NCBI GenBank assembly: GCA_003963075.1
Contig: RXJV01000036.1
Coordinates: 1 to 64,000, forward strand
DNA: 64,000 nucleotides
Direction: 5' to 3'
Source: Burkholderiales bacterium
GTDB taxonomy: Bacteria; Pseudomonadota; Gammaproteobacteria; Burkholderiales; Burkholderiaceae_C
This document shows, piece after piece, positions 50,259 to 55,816 of the stretch (its first letter is position 1; each line of letters opens with the position of its first letter). The translations under genes were made by a program, and so were the position numbers. The notes below the pieces were generated by a model, which was not told the DNA's origin, searched no databases, and was given only the letters and a program-made list of their open reading frames with translations.

Positions 50259-51328
50259 CCGCCCCGTTGCTGAAGAAGACCCTGCTGCCCGCCGCGCTGG
50301 GCCTGGCCGTGCTGGCCCTGGCCGGCTGGGGTTGGACAAGGCTGCGCCCGCAGGGCCCGGGCGAGGCCTTCGTGCAGGGCAACGGCCGCATCGAGGCCAC
50401 CGAGATCGACATCGCCACCAAGCTGCCCGGGCGGCTGCGCGATGTGCTGGTAGGCGAGGGCGACATCGTTCAGACCAACCAGCCCCTGGCCCATCTGCAG
50501 GTGCAGAGCCTGGAGGCCCAGTACGCCGAGGCCCAGGCGCGGCTGCGCCAGGCCGAGTCCGGCGTGGACAGCGCGCGGGCCCAGGTGGCCGTGCGCGAAA
50601 GCGACCGCCGCGCGGCCCAGGCCGTCGTGGCCCAGCGCGAGGCCGAGCTGGATGCCGCGCGCCGCCGCCTCGCACGCTCGCAAGCCCTGGCGCAGGAGGG
50701 CGCCTCGTCCGAGCAGGAGCTGGACGATGACCGCGCCCGCGTGCGCAGCGTCGAGGCCGCGCTGGCCGCCGCCCAGGCCCAGGTCGCGGCGGCCACGGCC
50801 GCCGTCGAGGCCGCACGCACCCAGACCACCGGCATGCAGGCCACGGTCAAGGCTGGCGGCGCGACGGTGGACCGCGTCAAGGCCGACCTGGACGACGCCG
50901 TGCTGACCGCGCCGCGCGCCGGCCGCGTGCAGTACCGCATCGCCGAGGCCGGTGAGGTGCTGGGCGCCGGCGGCAAGGTGCTCAACCTGGTCGACCTCAG
51001 CGACGTCTACATGAGCTTCTTCGTGCCCGAGGCCGTGGCCGGCCGGCTGGCCCTGGGCAGCGAGGTGCGCCTGGTGCTGGACGCGGCGCCCGGCCTGGTC
51101 ATCCCGGCCAAGGTGTCATTCGTGGCCAGCACAGCGCAGTTCACGCCCAAGACGGTCGAGACCGCCAGCGAGCGCCAGAAGCTGATGTTCCGCGTGCGGG
51201 CCCAGATCGCGCCTGAGCTGCTGAAGAAGCATGCCGAGCAGGTCAAGACCGGGCTGCCCGGCGTGGCCTGGGTGCGGCTGGACGCACAGCAACCCTGGCC
51301 CGCCGCGCTGTCGAAGGTGGTCGACTGA
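50255..51328 (+). CDS. HlyD family membrane fusion protein
   Basis: [87 protein letters not shown]; overlaps preceding stop. Confidence 0.93.
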
Positions 51329-54036
51329 TGACGCTGGCCCGCCTGCACGCCCTGAGCCTGCGCTACGGCCACACGCAGGCGCTGGCCGACGTGACGCTGG
51401 AGCTGCCGGCAGGCCGCATGCTGGGCCTGATCGGGCCCGACGGGGTCGGCAAGTCCAGCCTGCTGTCGCTGATCGCCGGCGCACGCGCGCTGCAGGACGG
51501 GCGGCTGGAGGTGCTGGGCGGCGACATGGCCTCGCGCCCGCACCGCGAGGCGGTCTGCCCGCGCATCGCCTACATGCCCCAGGGCCTGGGCCGCAACCTC
51601 TACCCCACGCTGTCGGTCGAGGAGAACCTGCAGTTCTTCGGCCGCCTGTTCGGCCACGGCGCGGCCGAGCGGCGCCGGCGCATCGACGAGCTCTGCCGCA
51701 GCACCGGCCTGCTGCCCTTCCTGGACCGGCCGGCCGGCAAGCTCTCGGGCGGCATGAAGCAGAAGCTGGGTCTGTGCTGCGCCCTCATCCACGACCCCGA
51801 CCTGCTCATCCTCGACGAGCCCACCACCGGCGTGGACCCGCTGTCGCGCGCGCAGTTCTGGCAGCTGATCGCGCGCATCCGCGCCCAGCGGCCGGGCATG
51901 AGCGTCATCGTCGCCACCGCCTACATGGAGGAGGCCGAGGCCTTCGACTGGCTCATCGCGATGGACGCCGGCCAGGTGCTCGCCACCGGCACGCCGGCCG
52001 AGCTGCGCGGCGGGCACGCGTCGCTGGAGCAGGCCTTCATCGCGCTGCTGCCCGAAGACAAGCGGCGCGGCCACCGCGAGGTCGTCGTACCGCCGCTGGC
52101 CGCGGAGGCCGACGCCCAGGTCGCCATCGAGGCGCGCGGGCTGACGATGCGCTTTGGCGACTTCACGGCGGTGGACCATGTCGACTTCCGCATCCGTCGC
52201 GGCGAGATCTTCGGCTTCCTCGGCTCCAACGGCTGCGGCAAGTCGACCACGATGAAGATGCTCACCGGCCTGCTCAGCGCCAGCGAAGGCCAGGCCTGGC
52301 TGTTCGGCCGCGAGGTGGACCCGCGCGACCTGCAGACCCGCCGCCGCGTCGGCTACATGACCCAGGCCTTCTCGCTCTACGGCGAGCTGAGCGTGCGCCA
52401 GAACCTGGTGCTGCACGCCCGGCTGTTCGAGGTGGCCGAGGCCGGGCTGGAGGCCCGCGTCGACGAGATGCTGCAGCGCTTCGACCTCGTCGCCGTGCAG
52501 CACAGCCTGCCCGAGGCCCTGCCGCTGGGCATCCGCCAGCGCCTCTCGCTCGCGGTGGCCATGGTGCACAGCCCCGAGCTGCTGATCCTGGACGAGCCGA
52601 CCTCGGGCGTGGACCCGGTGGCACGCGACATGTTCTGGCAACTGATGGTGGAGCTGGCGCGCCGCGACGGCGTGACCATCTTCATCTCCACCCACTTCAT
52701 GAACGAGGCGCTGCGCTGCGACCGCGTCTCGCTGATGCACGCCGGCCGCGTGCTGGTGAGCGACACGCCCGCCGCCATCCAGGCCTCGCGCGGCGCGGCC
52801 AGCCTGGAGCAGGCCTTCATCGCCTATCTGCAGGAGGCCGCCGGCGCCGGCGCGCCCGAGGCCGCAGCGCCCGCCGAAGTCCCGGCACCGGCCACTGCCC
52901 GGCCGGCGCGCCGCTTCAGCCTGGCACGCGCCTGGAGCTACAGCCTGCGCGAGGCGCTGGAGCTGCGCCGCGACCCGGTGCGCGCCACGCTGGCCCTGCT
53001 GGGCACGGCGCTGCTGATGCTGATCATGGGCTATGGCATCAGCCTGGACGTCGAGAACCTGCGCTTTGCCGTGCTCGACCAGGACCAGACCGGCCTCAGC
53101 CAGGGCTATGCGCAGCGCCTGGCCGGCTCGCGCTATTTCATCGAGCAGCCGCCGCTGCACGACCACGCCGAGCTGGACCGCCGCATGCGCGCCGGCGAGC
53201 TGGCGCTGGCGGTGGAGATCCCGCACGGCTTTGCGCGCGACGTGGCGCGCGGCCACCGGGCCGAGATCGGGCTGTGGGTGGACGGCGCCATGCCCTCGCG
53301 CGGCGAGACGGCGCGCGGCTACGCGCTGGCCATGCACCAGCTCTGGCTGGCCGAGATGGCCCGCGAGCGCCTGGGCGTGACGCTGGCCGGCCCCAGCACC
53401 GTGGAGCTGCGCTACCGCTACAACCCCGACGTGAAGAGCCTGCAGGCCATGGTGCCGGCCGTCATCCCGATGCTGCTGATGATGATCCCGGCCATGCTGA
53501 CGGCGCTGTCCGTGGTGCGCGAGAAGGAGCTGGGCTCCATCCTCAACCTCTACGTCACGCCGGTGCGGCGCAGCGAGTTCCTGCTCGGCAAGCAGCTGCC
53601 CTACGTCGCGCTGGCGATGCTGAACTTCTTCATGCTGGTGGCGCTGGCGGTGGGCTTCTTCGAGGTGCCGCTCAAGGGCAGCCTGGGCGCGCTCAGCCTG
53701 GCGGCGCTGCTCTACGTGACGGCGGCCACCGGCCTGGGGCTGCTGGCGTCCACCTTCACCCGCAGCCAGATCGCGGCGCTGTTCATCACCATGATCGGCA
53801 CCATCATTCCCTGCGTGCAGTTCGCGGGCCTGATCGACCCGGTGTCGTCGCTGGAGGGCACGGGCGCGCTGATCGGCCAGATCTACCCGGCCGCCCATTT
53901 CCTGACCATCAGCCGCGGCGTGTTCAACAAGGCGCTGGGCCTGCAGGACCTGTGGAGCAGCCTGTGGCCGCTCGGGGTGGCGGTGCCGGTGATTCTGGGG
54001 GCGGCGATGGGGCTGCTGAGGAAGCAGGAGACGTGA
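51328..54036 (+). CDS. ABC transporter with two ATP-binding domains fused to an ABC-2 permease (RbbA/YhiH-like)
   Basis: Two Walker A motifs ([22 protein letters not shown]), two LDEPTxGVDP motifs, C-terminal ABC-2 membrane region [31 protein letters not shown]. Confidence 0.93.
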
Positions 54037-54075
54037 TGCCGCTTCGAGGCATGTGGTTTGCGGTCAGGCCCAGCG

Positions 54076-54632
54076 GGGAGTTCGCCCCCGCGGGCGACCT
54101 ACTTTGGCTTCGCCGAAACCTTCGGTTTTCTGGCCCGCCAGAAAGTAGGCAAAGAGCGGCCCCTGCAAAACCGCCCACCCTGCGGGTGGGTGCCCTGCGA
54201 TGCTCGAAGCCCAGGGCCGCGCCGAACTCACTTCGCTACGCTCCGTTCAGACAAGCGGCGCGAAGTCAGTCGTTGATGCGCGCTGCGCGCGCGCCCTGGG
54301 CTTCTGCGCTTCTCGGCGGTTTAGAAGGGGAGACCCCAAACAGCCAGCAGCCAAGCGCGCACTCCCTCTGGTCGTGGCTGCTTCTTCATTCCCCCTCTGA
54401 GCCCGCCGAGGAGCGCAGGTCTTCAAGCCCGTTCGCGAAGCGAACCTCAAGCACTGACTCGCGGCGACTGTCCGAGCAGAGCGTAGCGGCGCGAGTTCGC
54501 CGCGCGGGCTTGAAGGCCGAGCACCGCAGGGCAGCCCGCTGCGAAGCAAAGGGCCGGGCGGTTCGGGGGCGCTTTCTTTGCCTACTTTCTTGTGCGCACA
54601 AGAAAGTAGGTCGCCCGCCGGGGCGAACTCCC
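54076..54632. repeat. Large nested inverted-repeat (multi-lobed) non-coding element
   Basis: Outer arms 54076-54105 / 54603-54632 (29/30 complementary), 54140-54154 / 54576-54590 (15/15), inner lobes 54206-54217/54293-54304 (12/12), 54312-54319/54403-54410 (8/8), 54347-54353/54375-54381 (7/7), 54421-54431/54505-54515 (11/11); 30-nt perfect palindrome 54581-54610. Confidence 0.85.
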
Positions 54633-54685
54633 GGCATGGGCCTTGCCATCAACCCGCCGCCTCAACAGCGGACCGAGTGACCGAC

Positions 54686-55816
54686 ATGCCCCGCCTCCAC
54701 CTCGCCCACATCTACCGCCTCGGCATCAAGGAGCTGTGGAGCCTCTGGCGCGACCCGATGATGCTGGTGCTGATCGTCTACACCTTCAGCCTCTCCATCT
54801 ACGCTGGCGCCACCGCCATGCCCGAGAGCCTTCGGCATGCGGCCATCGCCATCGTCGACGAGGACGCCTCGCCGCTGTCGGCGCGGCTGGCCGAGAGCTT
54901 CTACCCGCCGCGGTTTCGCAGCCCCGAGCTGATCTCGGCCCGCGAGATCGACCCCCGCATGGACCGCGGCGACGACACCTTCGTGCTCGTCATCCCGCCC
55001 GGCTTCCAGCGCGACGTGCTGGCCGGGCGCCAGCCGCGGCTGCAGCTCAACGTCGACGCGACGCGCATGAGCCAGGCCTTCACCGGCGGCGGCTATGTGC
55101 AGCAGATCATCGCGGCCGAGGTCAACCGTTTCGTGCTGCGGCACAGCGGCGGCGCCACGCCACCGGTCGACCTGGCGGTCCGCATGCGCTTCAACCCCAA
55201 CCTGGAGCACCCCTGGTTCGGTTCGCTGATGGAGATCATCAACAACGTCACCATGCTCTCCATCATCCTGACCGGCGCCGCGCTGATCCGCGAGCGCGAG
55301 CACGGCACCGTCGAGCACCTGCTGGTGATGCCGGTCACGCCGGGCGAGATCATGCTGGCCAAGGTCTGGTCCATGGGCCTGGTGGTGCTGGTGGCGGCCA
55401 TGGCCTCGCTCAGCTTCATCGTGCAGGGCGCGCTGGGCGTGCCGGTGCAGGGCTCGGTCGCGCTGTTCGCGCTGGCCGCCGCGCTGCATCTGTTTGCGAC
55501 CACCTCGCTGGGCATCTTCCTGGCCACGCTGGCACGTTCGATGCCGCAGTTCGGCATGCTGCTGGTGCTGGTGCTGCTGCCGCTGCAGATGCTGTCCGGC
55601 GGCGTCACGCCCCTCGAAAGCATGCCGGCCCTGGTGCGCTGGGTCATGGGGGCCGCGCCGACCACGCATTTCGTTGCCGCCGCCCAGGCCATCCTCTACC
55701 GCGGCGCCGGCCTCGCGGTGGTCTGGCCCCAGCTGCTGGCGGTGGGGGCCATCGGCAGCCTGCTCTTCATCGCCGCCCTGTCACGCTTTCGCAAGACCAT
55801 CGGCCTGATGGCCTGA
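54686..55816 (+). CDS. ABC-2 family permease (YhhJ-like)
   Basis: GIKELWSLWRDPMMLVLIVYTFSLSIYAGATAM; ALIREREHGTVEHLLVMPVTPGEIMLAKVWSMGLVVL. Start trimmed. Confidence 0.92.
   Translation: MPRLHLAHIYRLGIKELWSLWRDPMMLVLIVYTFSLSIYAGATAMPESLRHAAIAIVDEDASPLSARLAESFYPPRFRSPELISAREIDPRMDRGDDTFVLVIPPGFQRDVLAGRQPRLQLNVDATRMSQAFTGGGYVQQIIAAEVNRFVLRHSGGATPPVDLAVRMRFNPNLEHPWFGSLMEIINNVTMLSIILTGAALIREREHGTVEHLLVMPVTPGEIMLAKVWSMGLVVLVAAMASLSFIVQGALGVPVQGSVALFALAAALHLFATTSLGIFLATLARSMPQFGMLLVLVLLPLQMLSGGVTPLESMPALVRWVMGAAPTTHFVAAAQAILYRGAGLAVVWPQLLAVGAIGSLLFIAALSRFRKTIGLMA

Follow-up and report, generated by a model that had tools for sequence, protein, structure and literature searches.

The palindromic repeats that most resemble the element reported here are the REPINs, REP doublets found with RAYT transposases in Pseudomonas and E. 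coli. Like REPINs, the Roseateles element is non-coding, dispersed, and extragenic, is an inverted dimer able to adopt either a single-hairpin or a clover fold, also occurs as singletons, and carries compensatory changes. REPINs are, however, about 100 bp in length compared with ~600 bp for the Roseateles element, in which GTAG is unconserved and located within a hairpin, and for which no link to a RAYT gene was found; the element is further distinguished by its three-lobed core and by a copy number of about 15 in the best-assembled genome. BIMEs and BOX-like mosaic repeats are similarly modular, with arms, hairpins, and lobes being swapped, lost, or inserted in the Roseateles element, although modules of the former are strung in tandem whereas those of the latter are nested symmetrically. 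HEARO elements, whose target site is ATGA/GTGA, are another possible comparison. The TIR families of TIRYT transposases likewise consist of long dispersed repeats that are in part self-complementary and adjoin REP-like hairpins (Di Nocera et al. 2013, PMC3733652); for the Roseateles element, by contrast, a motif search detected no arms next to Y1_Tnp genes of the genus. Stable structures are also known between the genes of ABC-transporter operons. In E. coli, intercistronic structures protect the upstream mRNA of such operons, with the malE-malF structure guarding it against 3'-5' decay, and a transcriptome-wide study located structures of this kind at many operon boundaries, including those of ABC transporters (PMC5927463). 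The Roseateles element also forms a stable structure between ABC-transporter genes, RbsB|RbsA among them; unlike malE-malF, it looks mobile and recurs at many operons unrelated to one another. The element is REPIN/BIME-like in kind, is several times the size of known REP/BIME/REPIN elements, and departs from RAYT-associated REPs in their defining features, its GTAG being unconserved and no RAYT linkage having been found. In a limited literature search on palindromic repeats in Burkholderiales, Rubrivivax, Roseateles, and Pelomonas, the titles and abstracts listed contained no description of the family, nor was the arm sequence found printed in the relevant papers searched. The palindromic repeats of bacteria gain a very large, modular, and structure-conserved class.

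The copy studied here lies in a 64-kb stretch of host DNA, referred to as the window; coordinates are those of the window and all features are on the + strand. The original prediction had described a 557-bp nested inverted-repeat element at 54076-54632, and the following of its pairings were reproduced. The outer arms (54076-54105 with 54603-54632) pair at 29/30 positions and the inner arms (54140-54154 with 54576-54590) at 15/15, CCTACTTTCTTGTGCGCACAAGAAAGTAGG at 54581-54610 forms a perfect 30-nt palindrome, and stems of 12/12 (54206-54217 with 54293-54304) and 11/11 (54421-54431 with 54505-54515) close lobes 1 and 3, respectively. The closing stem of lobe 2 was found to pair at 13/15 (54306-54320 with 54402-54416). 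Elsewhere in the window the best pairing at the spacing of the outer arms was 21/30, compared with their 29/30, and the element ranks first among all inverted repeats of the 64 kb. Its boundaries had been drawn too narrowly: across 57 copies aligned with their flanks, column conservation dropped to background beyond about 54055-54657, which delimits the whole conserved element. Not recognized previously was that the element is an inverted dimer, the core (54066-54643) matching its reverse complement at 67% identity over 578 bp, with lobes 1 and 3 as inverted counterparts. Each of the two inverted half-units (~290 nt) comprises an arm, a hairpin, and a lobe.

In agreement with the predicted absence of a credible coding sequence, frame-breaking indels were present in 39/39 other aligned copies. 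The flanking genes were also as predicted, the element separating an ORF encoding an RbbA-like ABC ATPase-permease (51328-54036, stop codon TGA at 54034-54036) from one encoding an ABC-2 permease (54686-55816, start codon ATG at 54686). Located 5' of the element are a gene for an outer-membrane efflux protein and one for an HlyD-like protein. No Rfam 15 family reached its gathering score against the element, with only sub-threshold chance matches recorded, and a tRNA/tmRNA search returned none.

Folding of 54045-54665 as RNA gave -406 kcal/mol compared with -284 +/- 7 in shuffled sequences (z -16.5), and the same element folded as DNA gave z -15.2 against shuffles. A consensus fold built from an alignment of 40 full copies was a branched clover comprising an outer stem, a left hairpin, stems P2 and P3, three lobes, and a right hairpin. 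The left outer arm (54073-54105), which carries its own small hairpin (CGGGG-AGTTCGC-CCCCG), is 94% complementary to the right outer arm (54603-54635), and this outer stem is kept in the consensus. It is followed by the left inner hairpin, whose 3' part, TTTCTGGCCCGCCAGAAAGTAGG (54127-54149), belongs to consensus pairs between columns 25-29 and 54-61 and columns 68-78, with both-sided changes. In the window copy this hairpin contains an extra insert of ~24 nt, TTTGGCTTCGCCGAAACCTTCGGT (54103-54126, edges uncertain by a few bases; gap columns 30-53 of the 40-copy alignment), which is missing in most copies and present also in L208; a motif resembling it was seen in L222, L244, and L255. The 5' strand of P2 (54160-54174) pairs with 54558-54569 and that of P3, CCCTGCGATGCTC (54193-54205), with 54519-54531, both in the consensus fold, and between them lies a small hairpin (CCCACCC-TGC-GGGTGGG, 54174-54190, columns 105-123) with 10 both-sided changes at columns 107/121. 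Lobe 1 (54206-54304) is closed by GAAGCCCAGGGC/GCCCTGGGCTTC, lobe 2 (54306-54416), defined by the consensus fold and its closing stem, forms the dimer center, and lobe 3 spans 54418-54518. The right inner hairpin (54581-54610), which is the perfect palindrome of the window copy, shows AU/UA and UA/CG exchanges across copies.

The clover has 129 consensus pairs, of which 41 display at least one both-sided, i.e., compensatory, change. In the 40-copy alignment, 97.7% of its cells were paired and 301 were compensatory, compared with 82.9% and 141 for a single giant hairpin, a comparison tilted toward the clover because the clover was derived from that same alignment. The giant hairpin has the lowest energy for the window copy, yet was rejected as the conserved fold given its lower paired fraction. 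Covariation was further assessed against a tree-aware null of our own construction, in the manner of R-scape, whereby substitutions are redistributed along a FastTree tree. Nine of 141,246 column pairs reached E < 0.05. Three of them, 170-194 and 146-253 in lobe 1 and 469-494 in lobe 3, lie inside the clover, and a fourth, 426-435, is in a short local hairpin of lobe 3 common to the clover and the giant hairpin. The remaining five are in neither structure and resemble linkage or mirrored variation, as recombination and shared ancestry would yield. This signal is modest, amounting to nine pairs with four in local hairpins, and recombination weakens any tree test. The compensatory covariation across aligned copies that had been proposed as a check was found in the lobes; the local lobes are thus maintained, consistent with structural selection or with a copying mechanism that requires the structure.

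The occurrence of the element was determined in the host and its relatives. In the draft genome of the host (4.65 Mb in 173 contigs), 29 BLAST matches were recorded, counting both strands of one palindrome. Many fell at the ends of contigs, suggesting that assemblies break at the repeat, and the element probably accounts for some assembly breaks in Roseateles genomes. Up to 33 matches were recorded in each of the other genomes of the genus, and copies were ~80% identical to one another. Nearly all 20 Roseateles genomes (GTDB sense) matched the element, and the arm motif, allowing one mismatch, occurred in 18 of them, being absent from G014 and G010, the latter having other matches to the element. 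In R. caseinilyticus P7 (G009), the best-assembled genome, about 15 inverted arm pairs were found, mostly 488-614 bp apart. Other genomes named here are R. saccharophilus DSM 654 (G003), R. puraquae (G018), Pelomonas aquatica (G005), and the host (G000). Y1_Tnp (RAYT-like) matches (L177-L206) numbered 1-4 per genus genome examined, element-free ones included. In a family-wide sample of 301 genomes, matches at E <= 1e-20 occurred in 16 of 141 genera, Roseateles included. Beyond Roseateles these were chiefly half-units or arms, with near-full copies in one genome of another genus (G335), and records from Variovorax, Xenophilus, Zoogloea, Comamonas, Rubrivivax, and others covered only about 10-40% of the element. 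Two partial matches of about 115 bp were found on plasmids, from Variovorax and Comamonas, and none in phage records. Several exact 16-mer matches in distant phyla or P. putida were accompanied by no other part of the element. The impression that the arms recur in Burkholderiales is thus borne out in several genera, and the locus is neither a single-copy sequence lacking covariation nor a set of unrelated terminators, the outcomes that would have counted against the original prediction.

The genomic context of 61 copies at 34 distinct sites was surveyed using gene calls from a crude method of our own. Copies were mainly found between codirectional operon genes, from the stop codon of one to the start codon of the next, frequently occupying identical junctions in different species. 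Neighboring genes were in the same sense as the element at 22 sites, in the opposite sense at 8, convergent at 3, and divergent at 1, the 22:8 sense bias reaching only p = 0.016 at distinct sites. Reference points equivalent to window positions 54060 and 54640 were typically 20-50 nt past the stop codon and 25-60 nt ahead of the start codon, respectively. Neighbor pairs, named by eye from flanking translations, included DppC|DppD, LivG|LivF, RbsB|RbsA, GspF|GspE, and a membrane-fusion protein ahead of a MacB-like protein.

At each of five orthologous junctions compared across the genus, some species were pristine and others filled, providing the operons without the element against which comparison had been proposed. 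The RbbA|permease junction was pristine in G001 (TGAGATG) and G017 (TGATG), held the outermost hairpin alone in G011 (~105 bp), a different module mix in G003 (~370 bp), and ~570 bp in G009. DppC|DppD was pristine in G001 and G014, held about 600-660 bp in nine genomes, and was shortened to 370 bp in G007 and to 70-90 bp in G011 and G017, with an unrelated CCACAGAGG palindrome instead in G002 and G006. At GspF|GspE, seven genomes were pristine, G015, G008, and G017 had the element, and G002, G004, and G006 the CCACAGAGG palindrome. LivG|LivF was also pristine in seven genomes; the element was found there in G000, short other inserts in two genomes, and in a further seven either GTTACC-type relatives or other composites, 590-726 bp in size. 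RbsB|RbsA was pristine in G001 and G006 and carried the element, whole or cut, in most others, with other hairpins of ~101 bp in G002 and G012. Overall, G001 was pristine at all five junctions and G014 at three. In a three-gene tree, pristine genomes were interspersed among occupied ones, and therefore precise loss or repeated gain is required. One good case of target-site duplication was observed, with ATGACGA on both sides of the insert at GspF|GspE in G017; other junctions shared only TGA/ATG at the insert edges, codons required by the genes themselves. These junctions, empty, shortened, or filled in related species, constitute natural allele pairs for effects on operons, whether the insert is tolerated or reshapes output.

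Identity between copies was 80.3% for the same site in different genomes, 80.7% for different sites in different genomes, and 83.9% within a genome, and the closest relative of a copy was never the copy of another species at the same site. Similarity correlations were 0.26-0.56 between contiguous thirds of the element compared with 0.69-0.83 between random thirds. Copies are mosaic, because similarity patterns differ between element thirds. This pattern would result equally from gene conversion between dispersed copies and from insertions recurring at one junction, and does not separate the two.

Taken with its dispersal, the empty sites suggest that the element is mobile. The original prediction of a mobile or dispersed structured non-coding element stands with respect to dispersal, structure, and lack of coding capacity; a defined mobility is putative, as neither an autonomous partner nor a clear target-site duplication was found. 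Among the arm pairs listed for the 20 genomes, there was no transposase and no larger, ORF-bearing form that might serve as an autonomous version. This weighs against a MITE, i.e., an insertion sequence that has lost internal parts, retains terminal inverted repeats, and is mobilized by an ordinary transposase in trans, which would otherwise account for the terminal inverted repeats, the lack of an ORF, a length <700 bp, dispersal, and clean empty sites. No parent with these ends was found, arm pairs being no more than ~694 bp apart among the matches listed in the 20 genomes, target-site duplication was inconsistent across junctions, and strong conservation of internal structure is unusual in a deletion relic; we regard a MITE as decidedly unlikely. 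Slightly less so is a REPIN in the strict sense, in which two inverted GTAG-tagged REPs would be mobilized by a RAYT (Y1/HUH) transposase from another part of the genome. The inverted-dimer architecture, lone half-units in other genomes, and, in most arms, a GTAGG string preceding a TCGCCC/GGGCGA stem all fit this scenario, as do the 1-4 Y1_Tnp matches in every genus genome tested and compensatory changes, which have likewise been described for REPINs (PMC3116915). However, GTAGG was present in only 29/40 right arms, the others carrying GAAGG, GTGAC, GTGAG, or GAAGA, and in the consensus fold it is paired within a hairpin with no unpaired tag. Furthermore, no element arm was detected around 30 Y1_Tnp loci in the flanks fetched, which reached up to about 1.5 kb, G014 has Y1_Tnp genes while lacking the element, and the unit is about ten times REP length, making a strict REPIN improbable.

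Alternatively, the junctions themselves could be selected by the host to hold a large hairpin with a regulatory role as RNA, being filled by whatever palindromic repeat is available. Occupation of the same junctions by the element, its GTTACC-type relative, the CCACAGAGG palindrome, or unrelated short hairpins is in line with such selection, as are the same-sense bias and compensatory changes. Every junction was nevertheless pristine in some related species, including all five in G001 and three in G014, and shared occupation is also explicable by old insertions, nested insertion, or target preference, leaving host selection doubtful. Neighboring independent intrinsic terminators are highly improbable: three weak terminator-like matches were found in 53900-54800, against 1.0 +/- 1.1 in shuffles, yet conservation spans the whole 600-bp unit as a single block across unrelated sites, and the unit sits inside operons. 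We consider the element to be, with reasonable probability, a genus-wide, non-coding, non-autonomous palindromic repeat of ~600 bp, REP/BIME/REPIN-like, that is spread in trans and likely forms an intercistronic RNA structure when transcribed.

For such a trans-spread repeat, copies would insert near overlapping stop and start codons using machinery supplied in trans and would then be homogenized or replaced via recombination and nested insertion. The element is probably transcribed within the polycistronic mRNA, where the clover would form a structure between the cistrons and may uncouple the two flanking genes, either through 3'-end protection of the upstream part or through endonuclease processing, as at malE-malF. 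By analogy with that system, the element may affect operon stoichiometry, as the original prediction had proposed. RbsB|RbsA represents a natural test case for an intercistronic role, since the binding protein gene precedes the ATPase gene. A broader and more tentative proposal is that overlapping operon stop/start codons are the preferred landing sites of several unrelated palindromic families, that each hairpin becomes a target for the next, and that giant nested palindromes thus arise independently at the same junctions in related species through a novel trans-acting enzyme.

Other repeats were encountered at these loci. The unrelated palindrome (~100-130 bp, type CCACAGAGGCACAGAGG...CCTCTGTGCCTCTGTGG) was recorded at junctions of G002, G004, and G006, namely at L305, L308, and L309 (GspF|GspE) and L281 and L282 (DppC|DppD). 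Another family, similar in size and sister to this one, has GTTACC/GTAAC in place of GTAGG beside the same CCGGGA outer hairpin and was present at L371, L375, and L376 (LivG|LivF) and L405 (RbsB|RbsA). A double-hairpin module of ~80 bp (TGGCTTGCCGCTTGCAAGCGGCAAGCC...CACAAGGCAGTCCGCAGTGGACTGCCTTGTG) occupied the loop of the outermost hairpin in L215, L236, and L270, which suggests that hairpin loops are insertion targets. At RbsB|RbsA, the element was inverted in G018 relative to the sister species G013 (L400/L416 against L402). The GspF|GspE junction of the host (G000, L314) includes 226 nt within which the end of the upstream gene is apparently duplicated around another hairpin-rich region.
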